Shown in pieces: positions 25,836-53,108 of a DNA stretch of 57,669 bases. Source of the DNA: Nitrospirales bacterium. Its GTDB lineage: Bacteria > Nitrospirota > Nitrospiria > Nitrospirales > UBA8639. Positions within the stretch are counted from its first letter, which is position 1. Each line of letters begins with the position of its first letter. Position numbers and translations under genes: made by a program. The notes beneath the pieces are model-generated. The model saw only the letters and a list, made by a program, of their open reading frames with translations. It had not been told where the DNA came from and searched no databases. The DNA lies in contig BQIZ01000003.1 in the NCBI GenBank assembly GCA_021604365.1, positions 1 through 57,669 on the forward strand. The letters are read 5' to 3'.

Positions 25836-25848
25836 GTCCGCGTCCTCC

Positions 25849-26817: not shown

Positions 26818-26862
26818 TCTTCCTTACTCCTTATAAAGGGTTATACCCTAAATTAATATTTC

Positions 26863-30211: not shown

Positions 30212-30313
30212 TGACCTACCTCCTTGTGAAAACGTGTTGTGTTTAAACCCATCAAATTTACCTAAATTCGTCATAAATGTGAATCTTAAATTTAAATCTT
30301 GTCATTCTTACCA

Positions 30314-30904: not shown

Positions 30905-31777
30905 TTAATTTGAACGTGCACATCTAAAACCAATTGTCTCATCTCGAAAATCAGGAACCATAAAACTCCTATTGGTAATTCGGAGATCTACGCCTCGGCT
31001 CGTATAGCCACTGCCTCTCATTGTCTTGTAAGTTGAGGTTGGCCGATTACCTTCTTGCGAAACTGAATCTTTCTGTAGATAGAGATCTTCGACGTACCAA
31101 TTATCCGTCCATTCCATAACATTTCCTGCCCCGTCAAAGACCCCGAATACACTTTGATCAAGAGGAAACGATCCTACTGGAGCCGACACTTCAAACCCAT
31201 CGCCCTCTCCTGCAAAATTGGCAGGATGTCCGGTCAACCCATCACCCCACGGCCAGGGGCGTCCATCTGTCCCTCGCATAGCTTTTTCCCATTCCTGTTC
31301 AGTAGGGAGACGCTTGCCTTTCCACTGACAATAGTCATTCGCATCGCTCCATGACACATAGGTAATCGGCTGATAAGGCCCTCTTAACAGTCCGAGCTTT
31401 GTGGCATAACGAGATGGTGGGCCAGGTTGCCGATGGCCTGTAGCTTCCACAAATTCCATATACCGTTTATAGGTGACTTCATATTGATCAATCCAGTACG
31501 TCCCTAAATTAGCGACGTGGGCAGGCTTTTCATTAAATCCGCCTTCATTACTGCCAAGAATGAATTCCCCTGCGGGTACTTCAACCATCTTATTCCCTAT
31601 GTCAGGATCAGGACCTATCGAATCTGTGGACGGCTCCAATGTCGAAGAAGGCATCGACTGGGGAGTTGGGTCTGGGAGACTTGGGGGAGTATCGGTGCCT
31701 TTCAAAATCCCCAATAATGGCAGGCCGGTCATAAACAGGACCGCAATCAGAAAAATTAATTTAAATCGACCGTCCAT
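30905..31777 (-). CDS. FGE/sulfatase-modifying-factor-fold protein, membrane anchored
   Basis: A 290-residue protein with an N-terminal membrane anchor (residues 5-25), a proline/serine-rich linker (30-60) and an FGE-sulfatase domain (about 63-288). The family pattern is clear: 'VEVPAGEFILGSNEGGFNEK', 'YWIDQYEVTYKRYMEFVEAT', 'VSWSDANDYCQWKGKRLPTE', 'GVFDGAGNVMEWTDNWY' and 'GFRCARSN'. The catalytic cysteine pair of true formylglycine-generating enzyme, expected just after the RGGSW-type segment, is missing ('MRGSGYTSRGVDLRITNRS'). This makes a structural or ligand-binding role likely. AAGGAATAGGG precedes the ATG. It lies 85 bases downstream of a related gene and ends the second oxidase locus. 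Confidence 0.85.
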   Translation of the reverse strand: MDGRFKLIFLIAVLFMTGLPLLGILKGTDTPPSLPDPTPQSMPSSTLEPSTDSIGPDPDIGNKMVEVPAGEFILGSNEGGFNEKPAHVANLGTYWIDQYEVTYKRYMEFVEATGHRQPGPPSRYATKLGLLRGPYQPITYVSWSDANDYCQWKGKRLPTEQEWEKAMRGTDGRPWPWGDGLTGHPANFAGEGDGFEVSAPVGSFPLDQSVFGVFDGAGNVMEWTDNWYVEDLYLQKDSVSQEGNRPTSTYKTMRGSGYTSRGVDLRITNRSFMVPDFRDETIGFRCARSN

Positions 31778-31862: not shown

Positions 31863-32783
31863 TTAGGATGATTGAGGAGTCTCAGTGGCTGGAGGATCTT
31901 TTGCGCACCGAAATCCAACACTGGCATCGTTCCTCCACATTTTAGCTGCAAAACGCTTGGTAACCCTGGCCCCTATACGAGATTCTCGCCAAGAGCCCCC
32001 ACGAATGACTTTATTCTCATCTTCGACTTTTGGTCCTGGGGGATCGCGATACGGGGCCTGTTGATAATAGTCAGCAGCATAACTATCCATGACCCACTCG
32101 GCTACATTGCCGGTGGCATCATAGAGTCCGAAAGGGCTTCTCCCTACCTCAAAGGATCCCACAGGAGCTAAATACTGAAAGCCATCTTCCTTCCCATCAA
32201 CATTGGCAAACTGATATTCGAATTTTTCCCCCCAAGGATAACGACGCTTCCCTTCTCCCCTTGCCGCCTTTTCCCACTCCGCTTCGGTCGGCAACCGCTT
32301 GCCAGCCCACCGACAATACCCAAAGGCATCGTTCCAGGTCACAGCCACCACCGGATAATCCGGACCGACCAGCTTGGCGACATCATCTTCAAAGACCGGC
32401 ACCTTAGGTTTGTCCCGTTTCGTCATCTTGATATACCGATCATAATCTGCCTGTGTGACTTCTTTAAGGTCGATGTAAAACGTTTGGAGATACACCGGAT
32501 GCGATGGCCCTTCATCGGGATCCCCATCCTCAATGCCCATAGTAAACGGCCCTTCAGGAATTTCAACCATTTCCCGGCCATCATCCCCGACGAATGTTTT
32601 ATACATGGAAAAATCTTCTGTGGGCATTGGCTGCAAAACCCTGACGTTGGCCGGTTGGCCGGCCGACAATTCCTCCAAATCAGCCTTCCCTTTATAAGTC
32701 ATATAAATCAACATCACGATCATCATGATAAATGAGCCGAATACAAATAAAATTGAGCCGATGAGGACACGTTGATTTTCCAT
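31863..32783 (-). CDS. FGE/sulfatase-modifying-factor-fold protein, membrane anchored
   Basis: A 306-residue protein: N-terminal membrane helix (about 6-27), then an FGE-sulfatase domain (about 65-300) with 'VEIPEGPFTMGIEDGDPDEG', 'FYIDLKEVTQADYDRYIKMT', 'VTWNDAFGYCRWAGKRLPTE', 'GLYDATGNVAEWVMDSY', 'VIRGGSWRESRIGARV' and 'GFRCAKD'. As in its neighbour, the cysteines needed for copper-dependent formylglycine formation are absent after RGGSW. The ATG at 32783 was chosen because it leads directly into the membrane helix; the frame is open to 32867 and would otherwise overlap the upstream gene. Roughly 40% alike in pattern to the next gene by eye. It is probably periplasmic and associated with the oxidase locus. 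Confidence 0.86.
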   Translation of the reverse strand: MENQRVLIGSILFVFGSFIMMIVMLIYMTYKGKADLEELSAGQPANVRVLQPMPTEDFSMYKTFVGDDGREMVEIPEGPFTMGIEDGDPDEGPSHPVYLQTFYIDLKEVTQADYDRYIKMTKRDKPKVPVFEDDVAKLVGPDYPVVAVTWNDAFGYCRWAGKRLPTEAEWEKAARGEGKRRYPWGEKFEYQFANVDGKEDGFQYLAPVGSFEVGRSPFGLYDATGNVAEWVMDSYAADYYQQAPYRDPPGPKVEDENKVIRGGSWRESRIGARVTKRFAAKMWRNDASVGFRCAKDPPATETPQSS

Positions 32784-32833
32784 GACTATCTTGCCTCTCG
32801 CTTTGACACACTCACCTCGATGATTCAGATTGA

Positions 32834-33202
32834 TTACGGTTGTAAATGATTGGGGTGCTTGTCGCACTCAGGAATGGTTTGGTTCCGTTGTCGCCACGTC
32901 TCTATAAGCATCGAAATCCAAATTCCCAAAAATCCACCCATTGCCGCACCCGAGGCTGCGCCAACCGTCACAGCCTCGGTTCCACTCACCCCTAATGTCA
33001 GCAAGCCACCTAAAATGGTTCCGATAAAAATGCTCAAAAAAAATCCTCGTCCGCCTACCAAGCCCACTCCGGCCCCAAGAATGGCTCCCAATGCTAACGC
33101 AACAGGAAGCCACCCATCCCCCATGAAGACCCCGATCAAGAGACCCACTGTCCCTAATCCCAGGACTCCAAGGAGGACATCAAAAATTTTAGCTGGAGTC
33201 AT
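32834..33202 (-). CDS. Glycine-rich small membrane protein
   Basis: A 122-residue hydrophobic protein with about four membrane segments rich in glycine and alanine ('GLGTVGLLIGVFMG', 'ALALGAILGAGVGLVGG', 'SIFIGTILGGLLTLGVSG', 'GAASGAAMGGFLGIWISML') and a short polar, histidine-containing tail. Glycine-zipper spacing suggests tight helix packing or oligomerisation. GAGGAG precedes the ATG at 33202; a GTG two codons upstream is an alternative start. It is nine bases downstream of the DUF3047 gene, so is cotranscribed with the second oxidase. Function unknown. Confidence 0.75.
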   Translation of the reverse strand: MTPAKIFDVLLGVLGLGTVGLLIGVFMGDGWLPVALALGAILGAGVGLVGGRGFFLSIFIGTILGGLLTLGVSGTEAVTVGAASGAAMGGFLGIWISMLIETWRQRNQTIPECDKHPNHLQP

Positions 33203-33211
33203 CTTCACTCC

Positions 33212-33946
33212 TCATTCCCGCCCAAGTTCATCGTTGGATGATTCAGCCTGAACCTGAATGGAACCAAAGTCCACTTCCACTCCCGGCCCTCCTAATAAAG
33301 AAATGCCCCAGGCATGTGGAGCCGGTTCATGATCATGAATCCTCAGAAAATCTTCATATACATTAACCCGCTCCTCAACCCACGTCCCAAGGGATTCAGT
33401 CCCACTACGAATGACAATTTCTGTGGAGCTAAACATGCCTCCCTCCTTGACTGACCCTACCGGCAATGTTGCACTCCACACATATTTCGTATTCACGGGA
33501 ATAAACATCAAGTCAACATCCAAGGACGGGTAGATTGCGGCCAGGAAATCGGCGTTATCGGGAACTGTCTGTATCCGCCAACGCCAGGTCAGAATAGGGT
33601 GCTGCTTCGGGTCCCACGTCATGTGCTTGGTATATACCCGTTGATTGGCATCTTTTGCCGAAAGAAAAAATGTCCCACCCTCCTTTTGAACTGTATAGGT
33701 TTCATGGGCAGTGACCGTACTCCGCTGCGCTTCCCATCCCTCGGGAAATCCTTTAGCATCAGGATGCTGAAAATCCTCCAACACCATGGAGCTACTGGAA
33801 GACCCTGTGTTTGGAACCTCTTGGGCCCACGCGGCACCACTTCCATATACTAGAATACCCACGATTAAACAGGCCAAGAAAAAAGACCTTGCACGAATTC
33901 GCTTCACATTTCCTAAATTGCTATGTTGCCCATGACAGACTTTCAT
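33212..33946 (-). CDS. DUF3047-family exported protein
   Basis: A 244-residue exported protein. A basic N-terminal stretch and a hydrophobic core (about 22-41) end in 'AWAQE', a signal-peptidase-type site. The mature part is a jelly-roll-like domain of the DUF3047 kind: 'FPEGWEAQRS..AHETYTV', 'WDPKQHPILTWRWRIQTVPD', 'FIPVNTKYVWSATLPVGS', 'VNVYEDFLRIHDHEP' and 'AWGISLLGGPGVEVDFGSIQV'. The start codon overlaps the stop of the oxidase gene by one base (TAATG), so it is translationally coupled to oxidase copy 2. It may bind a ligand or help assemble the oxidase in the periplasm; the family has no known activity. Confidence 0.8.
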   Translation of the reverse strand: MKVCHGQHSNLGNVKRIRARSFFLACLIVGILVYGSGAAWAQEVPNTGSSSSSMVLEDFQHPDAKGFPEGWEAQRSTVTAHETYTVQKEGGTFFLSAKDANQRVYTKHMTWDPKQHPILTWRWRIQTVPDNADFLAAIYPSLDVDLMFIPVNTKYVWSATLPVGSVKEGGMFSSTEIVIRSGTESLGTWVEERVNVYEDFLRIHDHEPAPHAWGISLLGGPGVEVDFGSIQVQAESSNDELGRE

Positions 33947-35817
33947 TATGCGGATTCCTCTTCTGAAATAACCTGAATCACCGGAGAAGGCCTTGCAAAT
34001 TCAGCCGTTCGCCGCTCTACCACCTGTTGATTTCGTCGGCTAAGCCAAAACACGAAAAAGACTGATGACCAAAAAACAATCATATTGAGGGTGACCATTT
34101 TTGCTGCAAATCCCAGGGAAGGGGTAAATGCCCACGAGGATTGATCCGGCATTATTTCGGAAATATGCCACTCCAATCGACCAACGGACCGGATATACCC
34201 CATCAAGCCCATTACCCAGGTAAAGGCGGCAGCCACGACAAACAATGCCACAATCCCACGTGGGGTAATTCTTCCCCAATGCACAGGCCCGTTCATGTGA
34301 GCGCCTCGCAATAACAAGCGATTTAACAATAAACCTCCAACGACCACAGTCGCGGTCGTCATCCCTTGAGGATGTGAAAGGCCCACGCGGACATTTGCCG
34401 GAATATAAAATCCGTAAATAGCCAACCACACAATATTGGCAATCCCCATGAGGAACAACCCCAGAAGAAAGATATTCCCCTTGGATGCCCACGGTACCGT
34501 CATCACATAATTGGCTCGCCGATACAAAATGTAACTCAGTGCGGTTAAACAGATCATGACATTTACCGCACCATTCTTTGCAGACATGACCCCATAATTC
34601 CCAAGTACCGGATGCTGTTGCCCGCCCATGGCTTTCATCTCACTCCCACTCATCGCAATGGTGTGGGGGGTAAACCACACGAGAAAACAGACCATCAACG
34701 CAAAGAGAATGGCCTTAAAATGTGGATGAAAGCGTTCCCCGCCCTGAAGGCGGGCCAAGGATTGCCAAATGTAATAGTTTATTCCTAAAAACAAAACCCC
34801 AACCATAATGGCTTGGAGCACAAACAGCCACGACAACATGCCCCCCATCATGGCCATGCCCATAGCTTGCCGAAACTCAAATACAGACCGCATCAACCAG
34901 TAACCCGCGAGTGGCATGGGCAGGAGCGCACAGACCACAACCACAATAAAGACATGCCCAACCCAATCGTAATACGCCCGATCCTCAGAGGTTTTTGCCA
35001 TGAAATACCGGTAGGTCGCATAGGCGACGACCACGGCGCCACCTGACATAATATCCGCCAGAAAGCGGTGCGTGTTCAGTGGGTTCCATAGTGGAGAGTG
35101 CAAAAGATGCCACACATTTCCTAAAAAGTGCCCTTCCGCATCAACTCCGGCTGGTGCCATCATAAACGAGGCCCATGAATTGGCTAACAACAATAAAACG
35201 ACTCCGGTTGCGTTTGAAAGAACTCCAAGAGTCATATGGAACCACTTTGCCGCCGGAGTTTTGAGGAAATCCCAGGTGTAATAATAGAGGGCCAACAGGA
35301 ATGCTTCACTCACAAATACCGTGGCATACACCGGCATGAGCGGCTTAAACGTCGACCCCATGTAACTCATAAATCCCGGGTAAAGAGTCACAAAGGTTAT
35401 GAGCATGAGACAGCCTAATAAAGCGGTTATGGACAAGGACAACAGGGCCACCCGCAAAATATCACGAGCCAGTCCATCGAACTTCCGTTGGGATGCCGGC
35501 TGTTTTCGAGAAATTCCTATGAATTCCAATAATAGACAAAATAAGGGAATCGATAAGACAAAACCCCCAAAATAGGTATGTTGCTGAGTCACAAACCAGA
35601 CCACCAACCGGTTATCCACGAGAGGGTAGGCGGAATAGTCCTGGTGGGTCTCTGCGACAGATGGACCCTCAATCGTTCCGGGAGTTTTGTAGAAAATATC
35701 CTGGCTTGCCTGCCCATCGGTCGCCGGTAAGGAATGAGCATCCATACCCAACGCAACTCCGGACTGCATGAGAAAGATGAACAGCACACTCATTAATGGT
35801 ATGACAAGATTTTTCAA
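33946..35817 (-). CDS. Cytochrome bd-like oxidase large subunit, copy 2
   Basis: A 623-residue polytopic protein paralogous to copy 1 (28244-30211). It has a signal-like N-terminus, a shorter periplasmic loop with 'DIFYKTPGTIEGPSVAE', then 'WFVTQQHTYFGGFVLSI' (His80, matching the copy 1 heme-ligand position). Further shared elements are 'AGVDAEGHFLGNVWHLLHS', 'NPLNTHRFLADIMSGG', 'FTPHTIAMSGSEMKAMGG', 'QQHPVLGNYGVMSAKNGA' and about 14 membrane helices. The start is TTG with GGTGA upstream; an ATG at residue 9 is the alternative. Unlike copy 1 it has no cytochrome c genes beside it; instead it is preceded by DUF420, PCP_red and membrane-protein genes and followed by DUF3047 and FGE-like genes. 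No CydB is present. Confidence 0.85.
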   Translation of the reverse strand: MKNLVIPLMSVLFIFLMQSGVALGMDAHSLPATDGQASQDIFYKTPGTIEGPSVAETHQDYSAYPLVDNRLVVWFVTQQHTYFGGFVLSIPLFCLLLEFIGISRKQPASQRKFDGLARDILRVALLSLSITALLGCLMLITFVTLYPGFMSYMGSTFKPLMPVYATVFVSEAFLLALYYYTWDFLKTPAAKWFHMTLGVLSNATGVVLLLLANSWASFMMAPAGVDAEGHFLGNVWHLLHSPLWNPLNTHRFLADIMSGGAVVVAYATYRYFMAKTSEDRAYYDWVGHVFIVVVVCALLPMPLAGYWLMRSVFEFRQAMGMAMMGGMLSWLFVLQAIMVGVLFLGINYYIWQSLARLQGGERFHPHFKAILFALMVCFLVWFTPHTIAMSGSEMKAMGGQQHPVLGNYGVMSAKNGAVNVMICLTALSYILYRRANYVMTVPWASKGNIFLLGLFLMGIANIVWLAIYGFYIPANVRVGLSHPQGMTTATVVVGGLLLNRLLLRGAHMNGPVHWGRITPRGIVALFVVAAAFTWVMGLMGYIRSVGRLEWHISEIMPDQSSWAFTPSLGFAAKMVTLNMIVFWSSVFFVFWLSRRNQQVVERRTAEFARPSPVIQVISEEESA

Positions 35818-39356: not shown

Positions 39357-40151
39357 TTATTTAATCTCGAAATTGGCTTCGACAGTTCCCCCGTCCTTCA
39401 CATCCACATCGGCTTCCACTTTACCGGCAATAGGATGCCAGGCTACAACTTTATGTTTGCCTGCAGGCACATCTTTAATCTCAAAGGTCCCATCCGCCCC
39501 GGCTACTCCATAGTGAGCATTGGTCACCGGCAAGTACCAGCCTTGCATAAATTCATGCTGGTCACATTGCAACCGCAATACAGACCCCTTTCTCGACATT
39601 TTCAATTTGACCTTTTTCTCTAAAGAATCACCTTTTTTGGCCAGACCAATATTGAACTCGGTGCTGGACTTGGCACCCAATTGATCAAAGCTATGCGGGT
39701 TATGCAACACACCTTCAGCCGATTTAGGATCGCTGGGATCAGCATCATTGTTGACTACCTTAAACAGCCCCTTACTCACGGACACTCCGGTATACGGCTT
39801 AAATGCGCACAATTCCGCCTCCACCAATTGCGGGGACTCCTTGCCGGCTTTGTCAATAAATGCTTTGTCCTTAATATCAGTAACCGCCACCACTGCATTT
39901 TTTAATCCCTTGCTTCCATCTACTTCCACTTCCTTCAGCAACCGAGTCTCACCATCTGCACTTTTGCTCTCATTTTTTTTGCAAAATTCCACATTGGGAA
40001 ATTTTGAAAAAGCAAATTCTTTCGGTGGTGGGACTTCCCCGGCAAACGTGACTTTCCCTTTAATCGTTCCCCCAGCCTGGGCGACTAATGGGGCAGCAAT
40101 AAGCATGCAGCCAACCAAAAAAGACATAGTTAAGGACTGACGTTTCCTCAT
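39357..40151 (-). CDS. Exported cupredoxin-like / carboxypeptidase-regulatory-domain protein
   Basis: A 264-residue exported protein with a signal peptide (1-26, ending 'AQAGG'). The first part is 'IKGKVTFAGEVPPPKEF..K...FC'. The middle carries a cupredoxin-type ligand set: 'GVLHNPHSFDQLG' (first His) and 'LQCDQHEFMQGWYLPVTNAH' (C-x2-H-x2-M). The last 55 residues form a beta-sandwich of the carboxypeptidase regulatory type ('GTFEIKDVPAGKHKVVAWHP'). It is lysine-rich compared with its paralogues at 44589 and 45527. The His/Cys/His/Met set predicts type 1 copper and electron transfer in the periplasm, though heme or no metal cannot be excluded. It is monocistronic with its own terminator. Confidence 0.78.
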   Translation of the reverse strand: MRKRQSLTMSFLVGCMLIAAPLVAQAGGTIKGKVTFAGEVPPPKEFAFSKFPNVEFCKKNESKSADGETRLLKEVEVDGSKGLKNAVVAVTDIKDKAFIDKAGKESPQLVEAELCAFKPYTGVSVSKGLFKVVNNDADPSDPKSAEGVLHNPHSFDQLGAKSSTEFNIGLAKKGDSLEKKVKLKMSRKGSVLRLQCDQHEFMQGWYLPVTNAHYGVAGADGTFEIKDVPAGKHKVVAWHPIAGKVEADVDVKDGGTVEANFEIK

Positions 40152-42533: not shown

Positions 42534-43877
42534 TTAAATACCGATCTCCTTATCCAAAATCCTCACAATGGCGGCAGCGGCGGTCACCCGCACCGCTTCA
42601 TCAGTATCTCGAAGAGTGCGCTTCAAAGTCGGCAAGAGAGTGCGATCGCCAATTCGACCCAATGCGCGCGCAGCCCCAATTCTGGGACGAGGCAACGGGT
42701 CATTGAGAGCCAACATGAGAGCATTGAGAACATCCTGACCTTTCCCATTTCCAAGCGCCTTGACTGCACCGGACCGAATAGCCGGATTTTGTTCGTTGAG
42801 AAGATGCTGAACGGTATCCCGGACCATTGAATAAGACGCTCCTGACTTTAACAAGGACGCCACGGCCGCCGCCTGCACACCGGAATTAGAATCGGCCAAG
42901 GCCCTAGTTAACGGTGTTAATACTTGAGATTGTTCGTAATACCCCATGCTAAAAGCCGCCACACTCCGTACTGCAGGAATACGATCAAACAACATTGCTT
43001 TCAAAGTCGGTAAGGATTCAGGAGACTTCAATTTCCCTAGGGATGCAATAGCCGCGGCACGGATCGAAGGCTGTGAGTCAGAAATAGTTTTTTCCAATAT
43101 CGGTATTGCACGACGATCCCCTAAGTCACCAAATGCACGGATAGCCGCTCCCCGTTCATAACCTTCCTCGCTTGTCGCACCTTGCTCTAAACGAGCCCAG
43201 TATTGCTTGTGACCCAACTCATATAATGCTCTTGCCGCGGCAATTTGGACAAGGTGCTGCTCATCGTCCAACGATGGTTTAATAAGGGGCACCAGACTCC
43301 CGTCGCCAGATTGTCCAAGCCCAACCAACACTTTTGCTCGCACCAAACCAGCTCCGTCTTTCAATGCTTCACGAAACACCTTGGAACGCTGCCCGGCTTT
43401 TCTTTGCCCCAAGGCTTCTGCCACTAATGCTCTAATCATGCCGGTTTCATCAGTTAAGCCTTTTTCCAAATATTCCACGGCATTATCAGAATCGATCTCC
43501 TTTAACGCCGTATACGCAGCGCCTCGCATTTGTTCTCGCATATCGGAACGGAGAGGCAATATACTGGCAATGGCCATCTGCCGTAACAAAGGTTCATCTT
43601 CCCGCTTTGTTACGCCAACCTCTTTATCATAGGTTTCAATGGCTTCGGGAGTCTTTCCCAGATTAGCTAAGGCAAGAATGTACAAGCGAGAAACCTGCGA
43701 GGGGGAGGAGAGATCATTTTGTAATGGCTTAACAAGGTCAACGACCTGCTGAAATAGACCCTGCTCATAGGCTTTTTGCGCCTGAACAACCGTTTCCTCC
43801 TGTGCCTCTTCCGCCCAAACCGAACCTGAGAGAATCCACAATACTCCCAGAAAGAACATAGCATTATAATGATTCAT
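42534..43877 (-). CDS. Exported HEAT-repeat protein
   Basis: A 447-residue exported protein: signal peptide at 1-22, a short TPR-like region (about 25-95, 'AYEQGLFQQVVDLVKPLQ'), then nine to ten HEAT/PBS-lyase-type repeats ('VRAKVLVGLGQSGDGSLVPL', 'IRAAAIASLGKLKSPESLPT', 'IRSGAVKALGNGKGQDVLNA' and others) to the end. HEAT solenoids act as scaffolds. It lies 68 bases upstream of the thioredoxin-domain gene's longest reading frame and 40 bases downstream of the LolA-like gene. No enzymatic residues are visible. A structural role in periplasmic complex assembly is the most I would infer. Confidence 0.85.
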   Translation of the reverse strand: MNHYNAMFFLGVLWILSGSVWAEEAQEETVVQAQKAYEQGLFQQVVDLVKPLQNDLSSPSQVSRLYILALANLGKTPEAIETYDKEVGVTKREDEPLLRQMAIASILPLRSDMREQMRGAAYTALKEIDSDNAVEYLEKGLTDETGMIRALVAEALGQRKAGQRSKVFREALKDGAGLVRAKVLVGLGQSGDGSLVPLIKPSLDDEQHLVQIAAARALYELGHKQYWARLEQGATSEEGYERGAAIRAFGDLGDRRAIPILEKTISDSQPSIRAAAIASLGKLKSPESLPTLKAMLFDRIPAVRSVAAFSMGYYEQSQVLTPLTRALADSNSGVQAAAVASLLKSGASYSMVRDTVQHLLNEQNPAIRSGAVKALGNGKGQDVLNALMLALNDPLPRPRIGAARALGRIGDRTLLPTLKRTLRDTDEAVRVTAAAAIVRILDKEIGI

Positions 43878-43917: not shown

Positions 43918-44592
43918 CTACCCTCTCCGTACCGGGGCTTCCTGGGCCTCAATAATTCGATAGCCCAAAGGTGCTTCAAAGTAATAATCTGGTTGCGAAG
44001 AAAGCACCACATGATGATACTCCACAAACCAATCACGATCCTGGCTTAAGAGTTTCAAGAGAATCTCCCGTTGGGGATCCACCCATTCGAAAAATCGTTC
44101 GAGTTGGCCAAAACGATCTTTGACTTCCACGTCATAGAGCAGGGCAGGTTGATCGCCTACCACGGATTCCCCAATAACCGTTCGACTCGTCTCTCCCTCC
44201 AACCGGATGGAAAATGGTAACAAATAATCCAACGTTAACGGAACGCTTATGATCATTCGCCGTTGCGACAACATATACCAGGTTTTTTGTTTATCCAATC
44301 GAATAATGAGAACGCCCGCATAGCCTAACCCTGTTCGTATTCCCCCTGCCGGCTCAATGCGATAGCGATCCTTTTTCGCAAACAACTGGGCTTTGGTGAT
44401 ATGGCCTCCTGTCTTCCATATGAGTCTTGCTGAAAATTCCGTAGGACTATGGTCAGAGAAATTGGGAGAGTCGGCGAAGGCCCAACCCGGCGGGAACCAA
44501 GCCATCATTCCAAAAATGGCACAACCAACCAAGCCCGCCAATTTTTCATCACAAGTTCGGGAGAAAAGAAGGGAAAAGTCTAGGCATTTCAT
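43918..44592 (-). CDS. LolA-like exported protein, unknown function
   Basis: A 224-residue protein with a hydrophobic segment at about residues 18-40 and a mature part of alternating beta strands ('FSARLIWKTGGHITKAQLFA', 'KDRYRIEP', 'GVLIIRLDKQKTWYMLSQRR', 'YDVEVKDRFGQLERFFEWVD', 'PDYYFEAPLGYRII') typical of LolA/LolB-type or DUF4412-like half-barrels. The first Met overlaps the upstream stop by four bases, so it is coupled to the copper-protein gene at 44589. It could bind a lipid or hydrophobic cofactor. The family call rests only on strand pattern. Confidence 0.6.
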   Translation of the reverse strand: MKCLDFSLLFSRTCDEKLAGLVGCAIFGMMAWFPPGWAFADSPNFSDHSPTEFSARLIWKTGGHITKAQLFAKKDRYRIEPAGGIRTGLGYAGVLIIRLDKQKTWYMLSQRRMIISVPLTLDYLLPFSIRLEGETSRTVIGESVVGDQPALLYDVEVKDRFGQLERFFEWVDPQREILLKLLSQDRDWFVEYHHVVLSSQPDYYFEAPLGYRIIEAQEAPVRRG

Positions 44593-45512
44593 GGTCTTTG
44601 GTGTTCAACCAAAGGCTCTATTAGAACAGGGTGGCCCAAGGCAGCGGCAGAAAATCTAGGCGGGGTCCTGATGGTATGTGCCGTCCAACGGCCTACGGGA
44701 GATTCCAAGGAAAAATCCCTTCTCACGGTTTGATTCGGTTCCACGGAAAATTCATAAACCTGCTCATGCTTCACACTTGGATGCCATGCACGAATGCGAT
44801 AACTTCCAGGCGGGAGTGATGAAATGACATACTCTCCCCTTTCATTGGTAAAATTGAAATAGGGATTATCCACCGCAATCGCCCAGCTTTCCATGTAGGC
44901 ATGGAACCCGCACTGCATCACAAAGGTTTTACGTCCCTTGCTCAGTCGAAATTGATGGACCAAGGATTTCCCCGGCAGATGCTCATGCGTCGCATGTATA
45001 TCTTCACGTTGATGCCGAGGATTAAAGGGCAGAGGAGAATTAAATAACACCCGTGTACCTTGGCTCAACGACGTCTCATAGGCTTGAATATCATGCATAA
45101 CCGGATCCATATTCACCACTTCAATCCCATGCTCATTACGAATAACCGTCGTAAATGGGAGAAATTGACAATCGCGAGCTTCCACCTTCGGAATAGAAAG
45201 GGAAAACGGTTTCCCGGCATTTACACCTTCAACCACAATCACGACCCCTTGAAGTTGATTGTGATCATTCACCACAAAATCCCTAAGGAGCCGCCACCCC
45301 TGGCCATCAGAAATGCGGCCGCAATACTCCGGATCAGGGAACGTCACCAGGTTGTACGCTTTAGGAGAAGGCGGAATGCCCTTGAGAGTCACAGTGCCGA
45401 CAATGGTGGCCCCATCCGTTACGTCAATCACTTCATAACCGAAAACGGTCGAACTGGTGATCCAGAGCAGGCCTATTATCACGACAATTTTCATCACTCG
45501 CTTCTGTATCAT
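44589..45512 (-). CDS. Exported type 1-copper / carboxypeptidase-regulatory protein
   Basis: A 307-residue exported protein. A signal peptide ends near 'TVFGYE'. 'TIVGTVTLKGIPPSPKAYNL' opens an Ig-like domain, and 'VVNMDPVMHDIQAYET' (first His ligand) and 'VMQCGFHAYMESWAIAV' (C-x2-H-x2-M) give a cupredoxin-type ligand set. A second regulatory-type sandwich ('GEYVISSLPPGSYRIRAWHP') follows. The C-terminal 30 residues are a basic, proline-rich tail. The ATG at 45512 is preceded by GGGAAGGGG; a GTG two codons upstream is possible. It is 14 bases downstream of its close paralogue at 45527, clearly a tandem duplication. Predicted periplasmic electron carrier. Confidence 0.8.
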   Translation of the reverse strand: MIQKRVMKIVVIIGLLWITSSTVFGYEVIDVTDGATIVGTVTLKGIPPSPKAYNLVTFPDPEYCGRISDGQGWRLLRDFVVNDHNQLQGVVIVVEGVNAGKPFSLSIPKVEARDCQFLPFTTVIRNEHGIEVVNMDPVMHDIQAYETSLSQGTRVLFNSPLPFNPRHQREDIHATHEHLPGKSLVHQFRLSKGRKTFVMQCGFHAYMESWAIAVDNPYFNFTNERGEYVISSLPPGSYRIRAWHPSVKHEQVYEFSVEPNQTVRRDFSLESPVGRWTAHTIRTPPRFSAAALGHPVLIEPLVEHQRP

Positions 45513-45526
45513 GCCCACCCCTTCCC

Positions 45527-46444
45527 TCAGGGAACTTGTCGTCGTAACGACGGGATAATTTCAACGCCCTCTCCAAGCATCTCCAGCCCGAAATGCGGAT
45601 TTTCCTGCATTTCATGCACGCTTCGCCGTCCTTGGGGAGACTCATATTGAAAGTCTAATGTCAGCGTTTTTCCCGATTCCACCCGGACTGTTTTTTCTAA
45701 ATAGGTTTTCATACCAGGATGCCAGACAGCCACCTCATATTCTCCCGCTGGAATATCGCTGATTTCGTAGGCTCCATCCTCTTTGGAAATCGAATAATAG
45801 GGATTTTCCACCACTAATCCCCAGGAAAACATATAGGGATGAAATCCACATTGCATAACAAACACATCACGGCCCTTTCGCAAATGAATTTTTTCAATCA
45901 TCGGTTTTCCGGGCAGATGGGTATGGACATTTTCCCCAAACATACCAACCACATTATGAAAGGGGTTCATGGGCAACGGACGATTAAACAATACCCTGGC
46001 CCCTCGTTCTCTGGCCGTTTCATATCCCTGGATATCATGTTCCACCGGATCCATATTAATCACGGTGATTTCATCCCGGTCCTTTAACACATTGACAAAG
46101 GGTAAAAAATCACAATCAATGGCTTCAACCTCTACCTTTGGCAAAGAAAACGGTTTACCTTTTTCTACCCCCTTCACCATCACCACAGCATCCTTAAGGG
46201 ACCCCTGAGGCCCAATAATAAAATCCTCAACAATGCGCCACCCTGTTCCGGTAGAAATTCTTCCACAATATACGGCATCCGGGATCGTGACGAGATTAAA
46301 CGCCATCGGTCTTGGGGGTTCACCAAGAATGCGGACATGCCCTTGAATTGCCCCTCCATTGCTGACCGGGCTCTCTTGATAGGCCAACCCCATGGATGAC
46401 ACCATCATCAGGAACATCACAATCACCATAACCCTTATCATCAT
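45527..46444 (-). CDS. Exported type 1-copper / carboxypeptidase-regulatory protein (tandem paralogue)
   Basis: A 305-residue protein with the same plan as the gene downstream. A signal peptide of about 20 residues ends near 'GLAYQES', 'IQGHVRILGEPPRPMAFNL' follows, and ligand candidates are in 'VINMDPVEHDIQGYET' (His) and 'VMQCGFHPYMFSWGLVV' (C-x2-H-x2-M). A 'GAYEISDIPAGEYEVAVWHP' sandwich ends the conserved part. Cysteines in 'DAVYCGRISTGTGW' and 'EAIDCDFLPFV' are shared with the paralogue and could form a disulfide. AGGAGG lies eight bases before the ATG at 46444. Pair duplication with strong conservation of the four ligand positions supports a real metal site. Confidence 0.8.
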   Translation of the reverse strand: MMIRVMVIVMFLMMVSSMGLAYQESPVSNGGAIQGHVRILGEPPRPMAFNLVTIPDAVYCGRISTGTGWRIVEDFIIGPQGSLKDAVVMVKGVEKGKPFSLPKVEVEAIDCDFLPFVNVLKDRDEITVINMDPVEHDIQGYETARERGARVLFNRPLPMNPFHNVVGMFGENVHTHLPGKPMIEKIHLRKGRDVFVMQCGFHPYMFSWGLVVENPYYSISKEDGAYEISDIPAGEYEVAVWHPGMKTYLEKTVRVESGKTLTLDFQYESPQGRRSVHEMQENPHFGLEMLGEGVEIIPSLRRQVP

Positions 46445-46808
46445 TCCAACGCCCTCCTTCCCATCACTGCCAACCAATAAATAGCAATGTGTTATATCTG
46501 CCTTGTTCCCAAAAACACTATGAGCGGGAAGTACTCCCAGTCATAATCTAATAAGACACTCAAGCATTAAAATATCCTTCCGAGCATCTCATTGTGATTG
46601 GATGGCTTTCTTTGGTAAGCCACTCCTCTCATATCACCCTATCATATTCGAATCACCGAAAATTCAAATCTAAGACTTTTGATAACTCAAAACCTCTGAA
46701 GCGAGGACAGCTCACTACGTACAGGAAAAATATCTCAGATTAATAAATAACCTCTGTGAGGAGAAATGGGGAACAGCTCAGGAACAAGAAAGCATCCATT
46801 TCTCACCT
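46445..46808. other. Intergenic stretch, no gene seen
   Basis: A 364-base gap between the FGE-like gene at 46809 and the copper-protein pair. An imperfect inverted repeat, GAGAAATGG (46761-46769) with CCATTTCTC (46796-46804), lies just past the stop of the FGE-like gene; its 26-base loop makes it a weak terminator candidate. The remainder is AT-rich and probably holds the promoter of the copper-protein operon. Confidence 0.4.
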
Positions 46809-47750
46809 TCAGGGGGTAGAAATCGAATGAGTCAGGTCATTTTTCAATTCACCAGCACATCGAAAGCCAAGCCAGTTGGCTTGTGCCTCAGGAGCTTTTC
46901 CATTGCGCTGAGCTGTCCGCACAGTTGGGGTGCTGTCTATCCAGCCACCCCCACGGAATACCCGATGGTCTCCCGTAGAGGGGCCTTGCGGATTCCGGTC
47001 AGGGGCGGTCTGATAATAGGCCGGATCGTACCAATCGTTCACCCATTCTGCGACATTTCCTGCCATTTGGAAAACATTATAGGGACTAATCCCGTTTTCA
47101 TACTTATCAACGGAAATAATAGGTGGATAAAGAAGCAATCGCTCAGGTCGATCACGGACCGGACCGGATATGCCCGACCTCCCAAAATTCGCACGTGTAA
47201 GCCCAGCGGGGGTATTTCCCCATGGATAAATTCGTGCATCCGTTCCCCTGGCGGCTTTTTCCCACTCCGCTTCCGTAGGCAGCCGCCTGCCAGCCCACCG
47301 ACAATAGGCATCGGCTTCATACCAGGAAACATGCATCACCGGATGATGAGCCATACTTTCCTGAAAGTTTCCACCGTCATATTTCCAGTCGGGTAATGGC
47401 TGACGATCCGTGTCCACGACAAAACGCAAATACTCCAAAGCCGTGACTTCATAGGCATCAATTTCAAAAGCATCCAAGTACACCTGGCGTTGGGGCATCT
47501 CAGGCCGGTAGGCCTTCCTATCTATTTTTTTATTACTCCCCATAGTAAACCACCCGGCGGGAATCACCATTCTCTTTTCTTTGGTAGGCCATTGTGCTCG
47601 TTCCAATGCCAATTTTTTTCCCGCCTCTGTCCACTCCGGTCGAATGTCAGACACGTCCAAAGCCCATGCCATCATCCCTGGCATCACAGTAAACCCAGCT
47701 ACCAACAAGCCCATCGCAACAAGGCTTTTCCTACATTGACTTACACGCAT
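46809..47750 (-). CDS. Exported FGE/sulfatase-modifying-factor-fold protein
   Basis: A 313-residue exported protein with a signal peptide (about 1-32, 'MAWALD' end), then the FGE-sulfatase domain: 'MVIPAGWFTMGSNKKIDRKA', 'FEIDAYEVTALEYLRFVVDT', 'VSWYEADAYCRWAGRRLPTE', 'ARIYPWGNTPAGLTRANFG', 'FQMAGNVAEWVNDWYDP' and 'VFRGGGWIDSTPTVRTAQRN'. The last segment lacks the cysteine pair of real formylglycine-generating enzyme, so the fold is probably reused. GGAGGGG precedes the ATG at 47750. It lies upstream of the copper-protein pair and downstream of the multicopper oxidase terminator. It is the third such protein in the window and is freestanding. Confidence 0.86.
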   Translation of the reverse strand: MRVSQCRKSLVAMGLLVAGFTVMPGMMAWALDVSDIRPEWTEAGKKLALERAQWPTKEKRMVIPAGWFTMGSNKKIDRKAYRPEMPQRQVYLDAFEIDAYEVTALEYLRFVVDTDRQPLPDWKYDGGNFQESMAHHPVMHVSWYEADAYCRWAGRRLPTEAEWEKAARGTDARIYPWGNTPAGLTRANFGRSGISGPVRDRPERLLLYPPIISVDKYENGISPYNVFQMAGNVAEWVNDWYDPAYYQTAPDRNPQGPSTGDHRVFRGGGWIDSTPTVRTAQRNGKAPEAQANWLGFRCAGELKNDLTHSISTP

Positions 47751-48172
47751 AGACCCCTCCAAATTAATCCGACGACTAAGACGCCACTGATGGGAAAATT
47801 AGAGCATTCACCATCCCAAGGACCAACTCGGATTTCTTGGGTTCGATCGGGGAAGAAGGCATTTCCCGAAAACCCCAATATTTTCATGTCAGCATGGTCT
47901 TTTAATGGAGCAAATCGTAGCTTCACCTTTCGGCGAGGTCAAGACGTGTTGCAAAAAGCCACTACCGGCTTTTCGGAAATGTCGGAATCTGTTTAATCCA
48001 TCAAAAGCATTTAGAAAAGATCCTTAGAATAAATAATCCGAATACCTCTAAACCAGACGATATTCCTGTAGAAAAACTAAAACAGTTGATCGAACGGGTT
48101 TTTCAATTTCCATTAAGGTTGTCTTTGATTCATTTGGTTCCACACCTTATAGAAAATTGGCCCTTTAGATAC
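47751..48172. other. Intergenic stretch, no gene seen
   Basis: A 422-base region between the multicopper oxidase terminator and the FGE-like gene. Open frames here on the plus strand lack ribosome sites and run antisense into the neighbouring gene. I see no RNA gene. It presumably contains the promoter of the FGE-like gene. Confidence 0.4.
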
Positions 48173-48233: not shown

Positions 48234-51200
48234 TTATTTGGCTGCCACCGGCAACACTCTGCCAGGCTCCACCACGTCGATCGAAGCTTGCTTGACCTCA
48301 CTCGCTCCTTTTTCCAGAGGCAGGATCCGTTGGTCGTTTTTCGGGAGCACCCGTAAATAACCCCACTGACCTGATTGAGAGTAAGGCAGGCGTTGATTAT
48401 TCCAGACATAATCTGCGGGAAGCATATCACGCCCTCCAGCGGACGGAATAAATACATCGATCGTTTCCGAACCGGCGAATTCCACCACACTGATTTCGTC
48501 GGCACCCGGCATAAAGGGTTCGATGGGCCATTCATGCTTTTCCACACTAAACATACCGTTTTGCTCGCTACTGGCACCGAACACATGAATCCTCACAGGA
48601 TCCCCTGCATGTGCCTGGATAATCGGAGTGATCGGATCTTGTGGATCATCAACTTCACAAGGTTGGAACATACGTCCAAGCGTACAACCAGCCTCTTCTC
48701 TGTGAAGATAGGGTTCGGAACGATAATTGACACCGGTCAGCCCAGCGACATTCTGGACATACGGCATAAAGCTGGTACCGATAATGTTGTCTTCATCTTG
48801 AAAGAGTAAAGCCACATCACGGTAATTTCTGCGGTTTTCTTGACCTGGAACGGTCCTGTCAATAATCACATCCGCTTCCCAACTATTTTTCATGGAAATG
48901 TCGGCACCGGTCTTTGGATCACGGTATTGTGAACCTTTAGGCCCGATGATGACCGCCCCGAACAGTCCGTTTCGCGGGTTTAACATCACATTTCCCCAGT
49001 CCCATACCAATGATGAAATTTCCCCGTTAAAAGGATCAGCATAATAGGTATAGGTCTTTGACTCACCAGGGGCAATGGTTTGATCCCCTGGGTTATTTCC
49101 CACGTTGGCGCCCAATGAATCCTGTGGATTAAAGGCCAAGGAAATGGCCGAGAACGAAGCCCGGCTCTCCTTCATTTTATTTTTGAGATTCACTTTGATG
49201 CAATCTCCCACGTTTGCCCGAATAGTCAATGGCATCGGGTGGTAATCCTCTGCCACTTTAGTGATTTCATCCTCCAGGACGTAGATCTTGCCATCAGGAT
49301 TTCTCAACTCAATGGTCCTCTCAAAGTCGATCTCAATCGATTCCGGAGCACTAGGATTAAAACTCATCCCCTGAAAGTCCATAGCGACCACATTGAATGA
49401 TTTCACCGGGGCCTCTTCAGGGCAAACAGAAAGAGGCTTTGGAATCTCATCCCGACCTGAATACCCCGCTGGGAGCGGTTTCAGATCCTTCGTCTTCTTA
49501 TCCAAAACTCGGAGGATTCCCCAACTTCCCTCGGATAATTTGGAAGACCGTCCGTTAAAGTGAATATAATCTCCCGGCTGTAGACGAGGACCGCCAGCGG
49601 CCGGGACAACTAGGTCATACCGCTCAGCGATTCCAATATGCATGGAATTTTTCCTATTGGCATCCCCGGCATATCGTTCGCTCAGAAACGTATGTCCAGA
49701 TAATGTCCAGGTCATCGTTTCATTCATGAGGGTATGGAGAAGACGAATCACTACGGTATCTCCCAAATACGCTCGCAATAATGGCGTATCCGGATCTCCG
49801 TGCTCAAGACTACTGAATGCCTTGGAAGCATCAGGATTAACGGCTAATCGTTGGGCAATAGGTTCAGCCCTGAAATTTAGGCCGCTTCCCGTCGTATGCG
49901 TCCCGCCGTTAAGGAACGGCATGGGGGTCATAAGAATTTTCTCCGGCATCATGAAAGACACCGTTTTTCCTGCTTCCAGCGCGACCTCTATGGGTTGGCC
50001 CGGAGGGTTCCCAGCTGTGACAATATTCACCGTATGAGGCACGGTATCATGAACTTGAACGACCATTTCCCGGAAACTATTATTCACACCATAGCCGACC
50101 GGTTCTACCGTATGGATATCTGCGATTGGGCCGCTCCTGACCAGCTTCCCGGTTGTAGGATCATGGTAGGTAGAGCCCACCGGTTCAACGACTAACGTCC
50201 CGAATCCGCCATGTGGCCATGTGGTGGCTCCGAATGCATGGTCATGCCAGAACACCGTTCCTACGTCAGCATCAGCCCAGAGTCGTGACCGCACAAATTC
50301 CACCGTCACGATGTCCCCTACAGGATGGTCATGCAGCAATGGACGAACAAAGGAAATGGTATCTCCTTTTATCGATTTAATGCGACGGATCTCGTTGCCT
50401 TTGACATTATCGGCACCGACCAGCAATTCCGTATTAACATGATATTGCGCCGCATTTTTGACCTTAATGCTGGAATCCCCTTTTTTCGCCTTTGCCGTAA
50501 AGACCGTATTCATCGGCACAGGCAGACCTTTTTTGGTCTTTTTCTCCATCATGGTAAACGGACGGACAGACTGTTCGTAGGAAAAGCCCGTAATCACTCC
50601 ATCCGATGCCTGGTTGTCGAATTGAAGGAAATGAGGATGAATATTAATTTTAGAAGATTGGAAATTAGTAAAGTCGTCATCCAGCCATTCGCTGGTCAAC
50701 GTATAATCAATGCAATCATAAATATTGGCACGAAACACCAATGGTAATTTTTTATCATTGTTTTTTCGTGTTTCCTCTTCCTCCTCATGAAGCACGTAAA
50801 TCAGCCCATAGGGATCAATAACCGGATCTTCTTTCCCCTGGGGACCTGCCATTTCAATGGGCGTATTAATGAAATGTATATTGTAATATTTTCGTCCGGC
50901 ATTCTCCGGGCACAAACTCCACCGGCCATTTTCTCCGGGTTTCGCCGGCTCGGAGGTTCGTAGACCATTTTCATCCTGATGAATCATTTCTAACCAAGGG
51001 GCCGGATTATGATTTGGTGGGAACATGACCCGTTTACCGAAATGCGGAGTCAGATGGGGCCATGATACCTTTCCGGTCCTCGGCTCAAACAGAATCGGCC
51101 GACGCTTCCCGGGTGTCGGTGAATGGTACTTGGGATTCACAATTGTGCTTTCTTTCTCAGACATGGCCTTATTACCATCCCATGCCCAATCCAACACCGT

Positions 51201-53108
51201 CGCATCATAAGAAATGATCTGGCCCTTTTCGTCATCCTTGTGACCGGGCTTCCCTTGAGCAGGCAACTGGATTTCCACCCATTCTTTAATATTGATGACC
51301 GCTGGGTTCGATTTCCAATCGCTCTTACCTTTTTCAACGATGGTGAATTTTTTCCCAAACCAATCGACGGTTTTACCAACCAATTGATCGGAAGTAACAC
51401 CCGTCTTCATCCGTCCTTTTCTATCCGGCAACTCTCTGAGGTTTGGCATGACGTCCGTGCGATTGTCGTCGGTCTGCATGGTGTTATATACCCGCCAATA
51501 CCCCCACATGCCAGCAACATAATGATGGGCGACATGGCAATGAAATAAGAAGTCACCAGCCAGCTGTTGGCATAGGCCTGACCCACATTCCGTCTCCAAA
51601 TCCAAAGCTTCTGACGGCCCGATGACTTCTACATCAACACGGTCCGTTTTCATTCTGATGACCGGATATTTCACGGGACCGTTTTTCGCGGCGTGCCATA
51701 GTGGCATTTCGTCAATCGCCCGTGGACTCCGGGGCCATCGAATCGTTCCTCCATGTGGATGGTGGGAATGAAATACCTCAGACCCTCCATGAATCAATCT
51801 GAATTTGGCAGGATCGCCTAAGTAGGATCGAGGAAGGGTCGTTGGCACATCACCATAGGTATAGGAGCTATACCCCATCGATTCATCTTCAAAACCAAAG
51901 TATTCGTGCTGCACATGCATATTGTTGATACCAAACGGCTCACTCCGATAATTGAGAGCTCGAGCCCCAGGCCTGTACACATCGGTAAGCGGATCGCGTT
52001 GAGGCAGAAAATCACCATGCTTATTTACCGGACGAAACGCTTCATCACCTATTTCATGGTAAATCAACACGAATTCACGAAAATCCGGGCCGGTTCCATT
52101 TTTGATAATGGCCTGCCAACCACTTTTCATAGGCGTGGCATCTCCATCTCCCAAGGGATCCAAATATTCTGAACCTATAGGTTCCACCACAAAGGTCCCC
52201 ATAAGCCCCATGACTGTCAATTCCCGATCGTTGGCAAAGGTATGGAATTGGCGTCCACCCTCCTGGGTGTCAGGATGGATATACCACTCCATCTCCACCA
52301 CTTCACCCTCTTCAGCCACGGTATCACGATTGGTTGTCGTAGCCGGCTGTCCGGTTTCGCTGATAACCATATTCGAGCCATGAATGTGAAGACTAGCCTC
52401 CTCACCAAACTCCAGTTGATTCCGGAGAGTGAATTTCACGCAATCGCCTTGATTTCCTCTGATCACAAGGGGTTGAATCCACTGGTCCTGAAGCCCGTTA
52501 CTGACCGCGCCGGGGTCGCTATGACCATCCACCTCTCTGGCTTCAGCATTTTTGGCTTCCTCTTCGCGTACCTTTTCGATATTTTCCGTCAGGACATACA
52601 TGTAGCCAGGATAGTAATCAAGCCATTGGTTGAGGGTAATCTCGGCATTGATGGCGGAAATGTCATATTCCCTGACAGGGGCAGTTGATGGACAATTTCC
52701 ACCACTTGCCGCAACAGGTTCCACATTCCGATCGGATGCCAAAAGTAAATCCTGGCCTCCTGCGCCATATTGATGCATGTTGGTCATCGTATTGTAAAAA
52801 CCGGTCGCTGTATGGTCAGCATGTTGGGCACCGGATTCGTTTTCCATTCTCAACATGATCCGATCATGTTGGCGTTCCACCATGGCGGCCCGGTTCGGAC
52901 GACCTTCCTGGGTGTCCTCCATGATTGTCTGCCCCTTCAACCGCTCTGCCCATCCAGGTGATTCTTGATGAACCATACCCGTACTGTGGATAACTTTATC
53001 CTTGATTTCTTCGGCCAGGAGCGTTCCCCCTGCCAAAAAACTTGTCCCCCCGATTAACAATCCAACGGAAAGTGTGGTGATGGCTTTCCTAGATTTCACG
53101 TGAAACAT
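48234..53108 (-). CDS. Giant three-unit multicopper oxidase
   Basis: A 1624-residue exported protein (signal peptide about 1-32). It contains three tandem two-cupredoxin units, each starting with a 'CP' segment and ending in 'WG..RV': A about 139-541, B about 733-1205, C about 1229-1591. Copper motifs are spread unevenly. Unit A has HIHG (241-244), H447-x2-H450-x-H452 and 'HCHVAHHYVAGM' (523-534, with the type 1 Cys524, His529 and Met534). Unit B has HPH (824-826) and HDH (955-957). Unit C has none. Together these give one full set of eight trinuclear-site histidines plus one type 1 site. Unit B also carries a beta-rich insert (about 872-945). AAGGAGG precedes the ATG; monocistronic. Substrate unknown: Fe(II), Mn(II) or organic donors are possible. 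Confidence 0.88.
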   Translation of the reverse strand: MFHVKSRKAITTLSVGLLIGGTSFLAGGTLLAEEIKDKVIHSTGMVHQESPGWAERLKGQTIMEDTQEGRPNRAAMVERQHDRIMLRMENESGAQHADHTATGFYNTMTNMHQYGAGGQDLLLASDRNVEPVAASGGNCPSTAPVREYDISAINAEITLNQWLDYYPGYMYVLTENIEKVREEEAKNAEAREVDGHSDPGAVSNGLQDQWIQPLVIRGNQGDCVKFTLRNQLEFGEEASLHIHGSNMVISETGQPATTTNRDTVAEEGEVVEMEWYIHPDTQEGGRQFHTFANDRELTVMGLMGTFVVEPIGSEYLDPLGDGDATPMKSGWQAIIKNGTGPDFREFVLIYHEIGDEAFRPVNKHGDFLPQRDPLTDVYRPGARALNYRSEPFGINNMHVQHEYFGFEDESMGYSSYTYGDVPTTLPRSYLGDPAKFRLIHGGSEVFHSHHPHGGTIRWPRSPRAIDEMPLWHAAKNGPVKYPVIRMKTDRVDVEVIGPSEALDLETECGSGLCQQLAGDFLFHCHVAHHYVAGMWGYWRVYNTMQTDDNRTDVMPNLRELPDRKGRMKTGVTSDQLVGKTVDWFGKKFTIVEKGKSDWKSNPAVINIKEWVEIQLPAQGKPGHKDDEKGQIISYDATVLDWAWDGNKAMSEKESTIVNPKYHSPTPGKRRPILFEPRTGKVSWPHLTPHFGKRVMFPPNHNPAPWLEMIHQDENGLRTSEPAKPGENGRWSLCPENAGRKYYNIHFINTPIEMAGPQGKEDPVIDPYGLIYVLHEEEEETRKNNDKKLPLVFRANIYDCIDYTLTSEWLDDDFTNFQSSKINIHPHFLQFDNQASDGVITGFSYEQSVRPFTMMEKKTKKGLPVPMNTVFTAKAKKGDSSIKVKNAAQYHVNTELLVGADNVKGNEIRRIKSIKGDTISFVRPLLHDHPVGDIVTVEFVRSRLWADADVGTVFWHDHAFGATTWPHGGFGTLVVEPVGSTYHDPTTGKLVRSGPIADIHTVEPVGYGVNNSFREMVVQVHDTVPHTVNIVTAGNPPGQPIEVALEAGKTVSFMMPEKILMTPMPFLNGGTHTTGSGLNFRAEPIAQRLAVNPDASKAFSSLEHGDPDTPLLRAYLGDTVVIRLLHTLMNETMTWTLSGHTFLSERYAGDANRKNSMHIGIAERYDLVVPAAGGPRLQPGDYIHFNGRSSKLSEGSWGILRVLDKKTKDLKPLPAGYSGRDEIPKPLSVCPEEAPVKSFNVVAMDFQGMSFNPSAPESIEIDFERTIELRNPDGKIYVLEDEITKVAEDYHPMPLTIRANVGDCIKVNLKNKMKESRASFSAISLAFNPQDSLGANVGNNPGDQTIAPGESKTYTYYADPFNGEISSLVWDWGNVMLNPRNGLFGAVIIGPKGSQYRDPKTGADISMKNSWEADVIIDRTVPGQENRRNYRDVALLFQDEDNIIGTSFMPYVQNVAGLTGVNYRSEPYLHREEAGCTLGRMFQPCEVDDPQDPITPIIQAHAGDPVRIHVFGASSEQNGMFSVEKHEWPIEPFMPGADEISVVEFAGSETIDVFIPSAGGRDMLPADYVWNNQRLPYSQSGQWGYLRVLPKNDQRILPLEKGASEVKQASIDVVEPGRVLPVAAK

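Follow-up and report, generated by a model that had tools for sequence, protein, structure and literature searches.

Introduction

Two-domain laccases are homotrimers of chains of about 280 residues, with three trinuclear copper sites located between units. In three-domain laccase, CueO and CotA, the canonical order along the chain places motifs A and B before motifs C and D.

Six-domain proteins are derived from a tripled two-domain ancestor in the accessible sections of a 2013 analysis (PMC3600357). Every bacterial six-domain oxidase analyzed there has its interdomain site at the junction of domains 2 and 3, with mononuclear sites in domain 2 only and remnants of other sites persisting. A motif order with D ahead of A and B was reported for Bacillus mnxG from primer design, in the available text of PMC3039467.

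Related enzymes have been described from nitrifying bacteria. According to the accessible portions of PMC3578206, a putative Nitrospina multicopper oxidase, encoded in the same gene cluster as NXR and a bd-like oxidase, resembles the SG-1 Mn oxidase and has a highly conserved counterpart in Ca. N. defluvii. Mn oxidation was proposed there for the Nitrospina/Nitrospira enzyme, together with a role for Mn(III) against superoxide. Within the same phylum as the locus studied here, two novel multicopper oxidases occur in each Ca. Manganitrophaceae member (PMC9040806, available text). The open-licence literature, in its accessible parts, yielded no Mn(II) oxidation test on a Nitrospira enzyme of the MnxG-like family; this covers the available text of PMC9797979, PMC6839870, PMC10732223 and PMC13374858, while that of PMC10386581 and PMC10367259 gives only mnxG/moxA annotations in Nitrospirota bins.

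Here we characterize a giant oxidase gene and its surroundings in a 57,669-nucleotide stretch of DNA from a Nitrospirales bacterium (the window). We assign a probability of roughly 0.88 to the reading that it encodes a probably exported, six-cupredoxin, MnxG-like multicopper oxidase, in which a single site across domains 2 and 3 would reduce O2 and the remaining domains would serve as scaffold.

Results

Domain architecture

The open reading frame of the giant oxidase begins with an ATG start codon, with a ribosome-binding-like 'aaggagg' just 5' of it (Table 1), and Pfam places Cu-oxidase_3 and Cu-oxidase_2 on its product. The protein is probably exported, to the periplasm or the cell surface, judging from its sequence. 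It consists of three repeats of a two-domain unit, comprising domains 1-2, 3-4 and 5-6. These tandem units had been proposed in an initial annotation of the DNA, and their borders fall where it expected, with 'CP' starts at residues 139, 733 and 1229 and 'WG..RV' ends at 535, 1196 and 1582. By BLASTP the units are mutually homologous (A-B, 2e-14; A-C, 7e-17; B-C, 6e-31, with the insert omitted from unit B).

The copper ligands quoted in that annotation (H447, H450, H452, H523, C524, H525, H529, M534, H824, H826, H955 and H957) are all in place in the translated frame. Unit C is without a copper set and domain 1 of unit A retains HIH only, also as described. Motifs C and D (447-534) run ahead of motifs A and B (824-957), which is indeed the opposite of the order in ordinary laccases. 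The copper types listed in Table 1 for the residues of motifs C and D are those that we take to follow from the canonical multicopper oxidase motifs.

Domain 3 carries an insert for which a Pfam search gave no match and a PDB search nothing better than E 0.36. Of the ten proteins in the alignment described below, those of Nitrospiria and Streptomyces carry the insert; those of Priestia, Hymenobacter and the haloarchaea lack it. The insert contains a second HDH (926-928), a short distance N-terminal to the one of the active site (955-957). All ten rows of another alignment have H928, yet the insert is missing from MnxG.

Table 1. Features of the giant oxidase and its downstream neighbors, in window coordinates
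Feature	Coordinates	Strand	Evidence
Six-cupredoxin multicopper oxidase, 1624 aa, MnxG-like	48234..53108	-	ORF, Pfam, MnxG 9bxa matches
Probable Sec signal peptide, ~residues 1-32	53013..53108	-	sequence read by eye
Cupredoxin domain 1 (unit A), ~residues 146-335, remnant HIH only	52104..52673	-	repeat alignment; H241/H243 variable
Remnant H241-I-H243, domain 1	52380..52388	-	ORF check, 76-row conservation
Cupredoxin domain 2 (unit A), ~residues 340-545, predicted type-1 copper and half of trinuclear site	51474..52091	-	alignments
Motif C: H447 (type 1), H450, H452 (trinuclear)	51753..51770	-	alignments including 9bxa
Motif D: H523, H525 (trinuclear), C524, H529, M534 (type 1)	51507..51542	-	alignments including 9bxa
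Cupredoxin domain 3 (unit B), ~residues 735-1000, predicted other half of trinuclear site	50109..50906	-	alignments
Motif A: H824, H826 (trinuclear)	50631..50639	-	alignments including 9bxa
Insert of ~86 residues (852-937), between motifs A and B	50298..50555	-	gap in 9bxa alignment
Motif B: H955, H957 (trinuclear)	50238..50246	-	alignments including 9bxa
Cupredoxin domain 4 (unit B), without copper set	49494..50096	-	repeat alignment
Cupredoxin domain 5 (unit C), without copper set	48894..49421	-	repeat alignment; B+C model vs 9bxa Z 22.6
Cupredoxin domain 6 (unit C), without copper set	48339..48836	-	repeat alignment; B+C model vs 9bxa
FGE-sulfatase (SUMF1-like) domain protein, next gene downstream	46809..47762	-	Pfam PF03781 E 3e-55
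CPL3, CarboxypepD_reg protein with H147 / C210-x2-H213-x2-M216, candidate blue-copper partner	45527..46477	-	Pfam, family alignment
CPL2, second protein of CPL3 family	44589..45518	-	Pfam, synteny, family alignment
Protein without Pfam match at E 0.01, recurrent in neighborhood	43918..44592	-	synteny
HEAT-repeat protein, recurrent in neighborhood	42534..43877	-	Pfam HEAT_2 E 2e-51; synteny

Conservation of the copper ligands

Ligand conservation was assessed in an alignment of ten rows, comprising this protein, its two paralogues, one homologue from the same taxonomic order, and one protein each from Streptomyces, Priestia, Hymenobacter and three haloarchaea. These rows span 27-72% identity and five phyla, including Actinomycetota, Bacillota, Bacteroidota and the haloarchaea. 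All 12 ligands (ten histidines, C524 and M534) are invariant in every row, among 85 invariant residues in total, and the predicted co-conservation of the unit A and unit B motifs in homologues thus holds throughout. In contrast, only 1 of the 35 non-ligand histidines from residue 345 onward is invariant (Fisher p 3e-9). For the complete chain the figure is 2 of 47 (p 2e-9), counted in nine rows because one row starts only near residue 333. A chance origin of the motifs is ruled out by this difference between ligands and other histidines, together with the homology of the units.

A wider set of 76 rows, made up of this protein and 75 close relatives, retains each ligand in 75 or 76 rows. The exceptions are a P at position 447 in one locus (L108) and a run of N over 516-535 in another (L101). 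Domain 1 keeps its HIH less consistently (H241 in 62 and H243 in 54 of the 76 rows), and the motif therefore looks like a remnant.

The type-1 set H447/C524/H529/M534 is invariant, and domains 4 and 6 are without it at the matching positions. The eight histidines that make up the trinuclear ligands common to domains 2 and 3 are likewise invariant in 10/10 rows and align with those of the MnxG structure (PDB 9bxa). An arrangement in which the trinuclear ligands would be divided equally between domains 2 and 3, with the type-1 copper also in domain 2, is well supported by these alignments. The earlier proposal of one active site split across units A and B is thereby well supported by homology, with the ligands aligned to those of 9bxa.

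Relationship to MnxG

The best sequence match in the PDB is MnxG, the Bacillus Mn oxidase (9bxa; phmmer E 1.2e-75). A profile of the family matches 9bxa in one stretch that covers chain residues 2-1215 of 1227 (E 0, 1212 bits). Within this alignment, H447-x2-H450-x-H452 falls on H-x2-H-x-H and HCH on HCH, while H824-x-H826 falls on HIH and H955-x-H957 on HDH. H529 stands opposite an alanine in 9bxa, which fits the entry title 'Mnx H340A'. MnxG is also the best NCBIfam match (NF041487), at 131.5 bits against an equivalog cut-off of 3100; with the score so far below that value, it does not follow that the substrate is the same as that of MnxG.

AlphaFold models were built for residues 130-1225 (35 rows) and 726-1624 (37 rows), using rows 68-82% identical to the window protein, which were probably too alike to yield contacts. 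The model of units A and B (130-1225) has a mean pLDDT of 58 and a pTM of 0.55, and most of domain 2 falls below 50, too poor for site geometry. The model of residues 726-1624 is fair (mean pLDDT 69.5, pTM 0.74), with domain 2 outside it. Foldseek places 9bxa first for the A+B model (E 1.8e-35 vs 3.9e-11 for the next), domain 2 of that model being weak. In terms of Z-score, the A+B model gives 13.7 over 484 residues for 9bxa against 12.3 over 183 for a two-domain laccase, and the B+C model gives 22.6 over 681 residues for 9bxa against 21.1 over 533 for ceruloplasmin (1kcw). By this measure the lead of 9bxa is modest.

Distribution and gene copies

Three copies are present in this genome: the window copy, one that is 72% identical, and one that is about 41-46% identical. 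The most divergent copy (L039, G000:C153) scores 205.8 bits against the MnxG model, above the 131.5 of the window copy, and its neighbor encodes a 711-aa protein. The genome also encodes a multicopper oxidase of ordinary motif order (514 aa; L002, G000:C94) and a 323-aa protein that resembles a copper nitrite reductase by eye (L001, G000:C41). A search of the genome for narH returned only a weak match below the cut-off, which does not establish a nitrite oxidoreductase here.

In a sample of the class, a match was found in 145 of 146 genomes (this one included) and in all 132 of good quality; the exception, G295, is 85% complete. The wider phylum sample contained a match in 114 of 295 genomes, all of them within the class except G124. 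Two or three matches per genome are usual in the class, where matches may be pieces of one gene.

The nearest loci come from the Nitrospira/Nitrospirales metagenome-assembled genomes HKST-UBA08 (95% identical) and NPIRA03 (94%), and the copies of N. moscoviensis and Ca. N. defluvii are 75-76% identical to the window protein. The source is probably a member of the order Nitrospirales, perhaps of the marine lineage IV family that PMC12342949 discusses. Four loci that are 70-75% identical (L103, L126, L080 and L108) are filed under Opitutales, Nitrosomonas and Nitrosospira; these are perhaps misbinned or mislabelled Nitrospira contigs.

Gene neighborhood

Downstream of the oxidase lie genes for a candidate cupredoxin-like protein family that we term CPL (Table 1). 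A third CPL paralogue is found at 39357-40151 (minus strand), with a CarboxypepD_reg match below the Pfam cut-off. The pattern H147, C210, H213 and M216 is conserved in 118-122 of the 122 family rows. Such a His...Cys-x2-His-x2-Met pattern resembles that of blue copper proteins, and the CPL proteins may possibly form an unrecognized blue-copper family. Searches gave no Pfam cupredoxin match at E 0.01, and the best PDB hit (E 0.037) was not convincing.

Synteny was counted over the 65 loci with at least 1.2 kb of downstream sequence, 15 of the 80 loci being too short. In 56 of them the oxidase is followed within 3 kb by a CPL gene on its own strand, and 24 have two or more copies. Seven loci have no CPL gene nearby; in L106 and L115 the frames start before the oxidase stop and were left uncounted. 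The gene next to the paralogue on contig C54 is likewise a CPL gene. FGE-sulfatase-domain genes occur near the oxidase in some relatives only; the window encodes three such SUMF1-like proteins (30905-31777, 31863-32867 and 46809-47762, minus strand). Further away, at distances of about 12 and 18 kb, are two genes for a cytochrome bd-like oxidase subunit I (28244-30274 and 33946-35817, both minus strand), and cytochrome c proteins are encoded at 23961-28176, one with an ethylbenzene-dehydrogenase domain.

Discussion

The architecture of this active site is already known and is not in itself news: the giant oxidase joins the known bacterial six-domain oxidases. Its membership of that group as defined in the accessible text of PMC3600357 is supported by the sequence repeats, the predicted type-1 site in domain 2 and the shared trinuclear ligands. 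The fused-trimer origin suggested by the initial annotation agrees with the scheme of that paper and with the internal repeats. The surprise that the annotation implied finds no support, as the domain 2/3 site, the loss of the other interfaces and the order of C and D before A and B had already been described (PMC3600357, PMC3039467, in their available sections). What is added here is the near-universality of the enzyme in the sampled class, the three copies in one genome, the recurrent downstream CPL gene and the insert of about 86 residues in domain 3.

We infer the metal loading, site geometry and catalysis of the giant oxidase from canonical motif assignments and homology to MnxG. A type-1 copper in domain 2 would accept electrons singly from a donor, and H523-C524-H525 would relay them to a trinuclear copper cluster, where O2 would be reduced to water. 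Domains 2 and 3 would contribute four histidines each to this cluster. Domains 1, 4, 5 and 6, with their copper sets lost, may play a scaffold role.

The function that we consider most likely, at about even odds, is that of a metal oxidase acting on Mn(II) or Fe(II), either within the periplasm or beyond it. The accessible parts of the literature surveyed propose metal oxidation more often than any other role. The main alternative donors are Cu(I) or a blue-copper-like protein encoded nearby. The latter could be a CPL protein carrying electrons to or from the type-1 copper, in which case the oxidase would be tied to the respiratory chain and not to metal ions. The same-strand CPL gene that follows the oxidase closely at 56/65 loci, the 118-122/122 conservation of its pattern, and the bd-like oxidases and cytochromes c in the same window are consistent with this, and an energy-conserving role would require a periplasmic carrier (PMC9040806, available text). 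However, the CPL proteins match no Pfam cupredoxin at E 0.01 and find their best PDB relative at E 0.037, 7/65 loci have no CPL gene nearby, and synteny does not demonstrate electron transfer; we regard this explanation as unlikely. A more specific version, in which the giant oxidase forms the O2-reducing end of a copper-only electron path fed by CPL proteins, strikes us as a long shot. If true, the class would have in common a periplasmic enzyme dedicated to O2 reduction and separate from the membrane respiratory chain, on which nitrite oxidizers and perhaps also Mn oxidizers would draw.

Protection from superoxide through Mn(III), as a stand-in for a missing superoxide dismutase (SOD), was proposed for Nitrospina and Ca. 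N. defluvii (PMC3578206, accessible portions). The MnxG-like sequence fits this proposal, as does the lack of SOD and catalase in N. defluvii (PMC3578206, PMC8115632, accessible portions). The only sampled class genome without the oxidase, G295, has an Fe/Mn-SOD match, a single case that decides nothing. Nevertheless, the oxidase occurs in 145/146 genomes irrespective of SOD presence: Fe/Mn-SOD is found in 54/146, Cu/Zn-SOD in 40/146 and, from a manual comparison of these two lists, either in 71/146, and the present genome has two Fe/Mn-SOD matches. Since the enzyme is near-universal with or without SOD, a simple substitution for SOD is not supported; an added superoxide role beside SOD may exist, and the proposal as a whole seems improbable. 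We consider a copper-detoxifying Cu(I) oxidase, like CueO or CopA, to be quite improbable as well. A multicopper oxidase that is probably periplasmic, with a remote copper_res_A match (E 0.0066), would suit such a role, but this match is far below the cut-off, the ordinary-order enzyme on contig C94 could serve instead, and the 20 neighbors scanned include no copper efflux gene. Domains 1, 4, 5 and 6, devoid of copper sets, might recall a structural or inactive protein with a vestigial site, like factor V. The retention of 12/12 ligands in 10/10 distant rows and in 75-76/76 close rows argues strongly against this, and we hold it to be highly improbable.

The weight of these observations lies in the match found in nearly every sampled genome of the class, usually two or three times. 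The class appears to take in the order Nitrospirales, which includes nitrite-oxidizing and complete ammonia-oxidizing bacteria (PMC12342949, accessible text), and the phylum also contains Mn-oxidizing autotrophs (PMC9040806, accessible text). If the enzyme oxidizes Mn(II), nitrifiers could be among the organisms that form manganese oxides. This idea is testable in strains whose genomes are closed, such as N. moscoviensis, which is represented among the loci.

The giant oxidase shares the unit-level fold with two-domain laccases (SLAC, Ssl1), from which it differs in being one 1624-aa chain of three two-domain units with one predicted site. The motif order of three-domain laccase, CueO and CotA is not matched, with C and D at 447-534 and A and B at 824-957. 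Ceruloplasmin and hephaestin likewise have six domains and a common fold (Z 21.1 for 1kcw, B+C model), whereas their trinuclear ligands lie in domains 1 and 6; here domain 1 has only a variable HIH and domain 6 is without HCH. The 'novel MCOs' of Ca. Manganitrophaceae, likened by description, belong to the same phylum and number two per member (PMC9040806, available text), against the two or three matches per genome usual here. Large multicopper oxidases implicated in Mn oxidation, MofA of Leptothrix and MnxG/McoA of Pseudomonas (PMC8218464, accessible text), are alike through the NCBIfam MnxG match, which is below the cut-off. The MnxG-like oxidase of Nitrospina gracilis and Ca. Nitrospira defluvii (PMC3578206, accessible sections) is of the same family; a locus of the N. 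defluvii record FP929003 (L104) is 75% identical, and three copies are found in the present genome. With MnxG (9bxa), the giant oxidase shares six cupredoxin domains, ligand sets in domains 2 and 3, and homology over the full length. It differs in size, at 1624 aa against 1227 aa, having an N-terminal extension of about 135 residues, a longer linker between domains 2 and 3, and the domain 3 insert.
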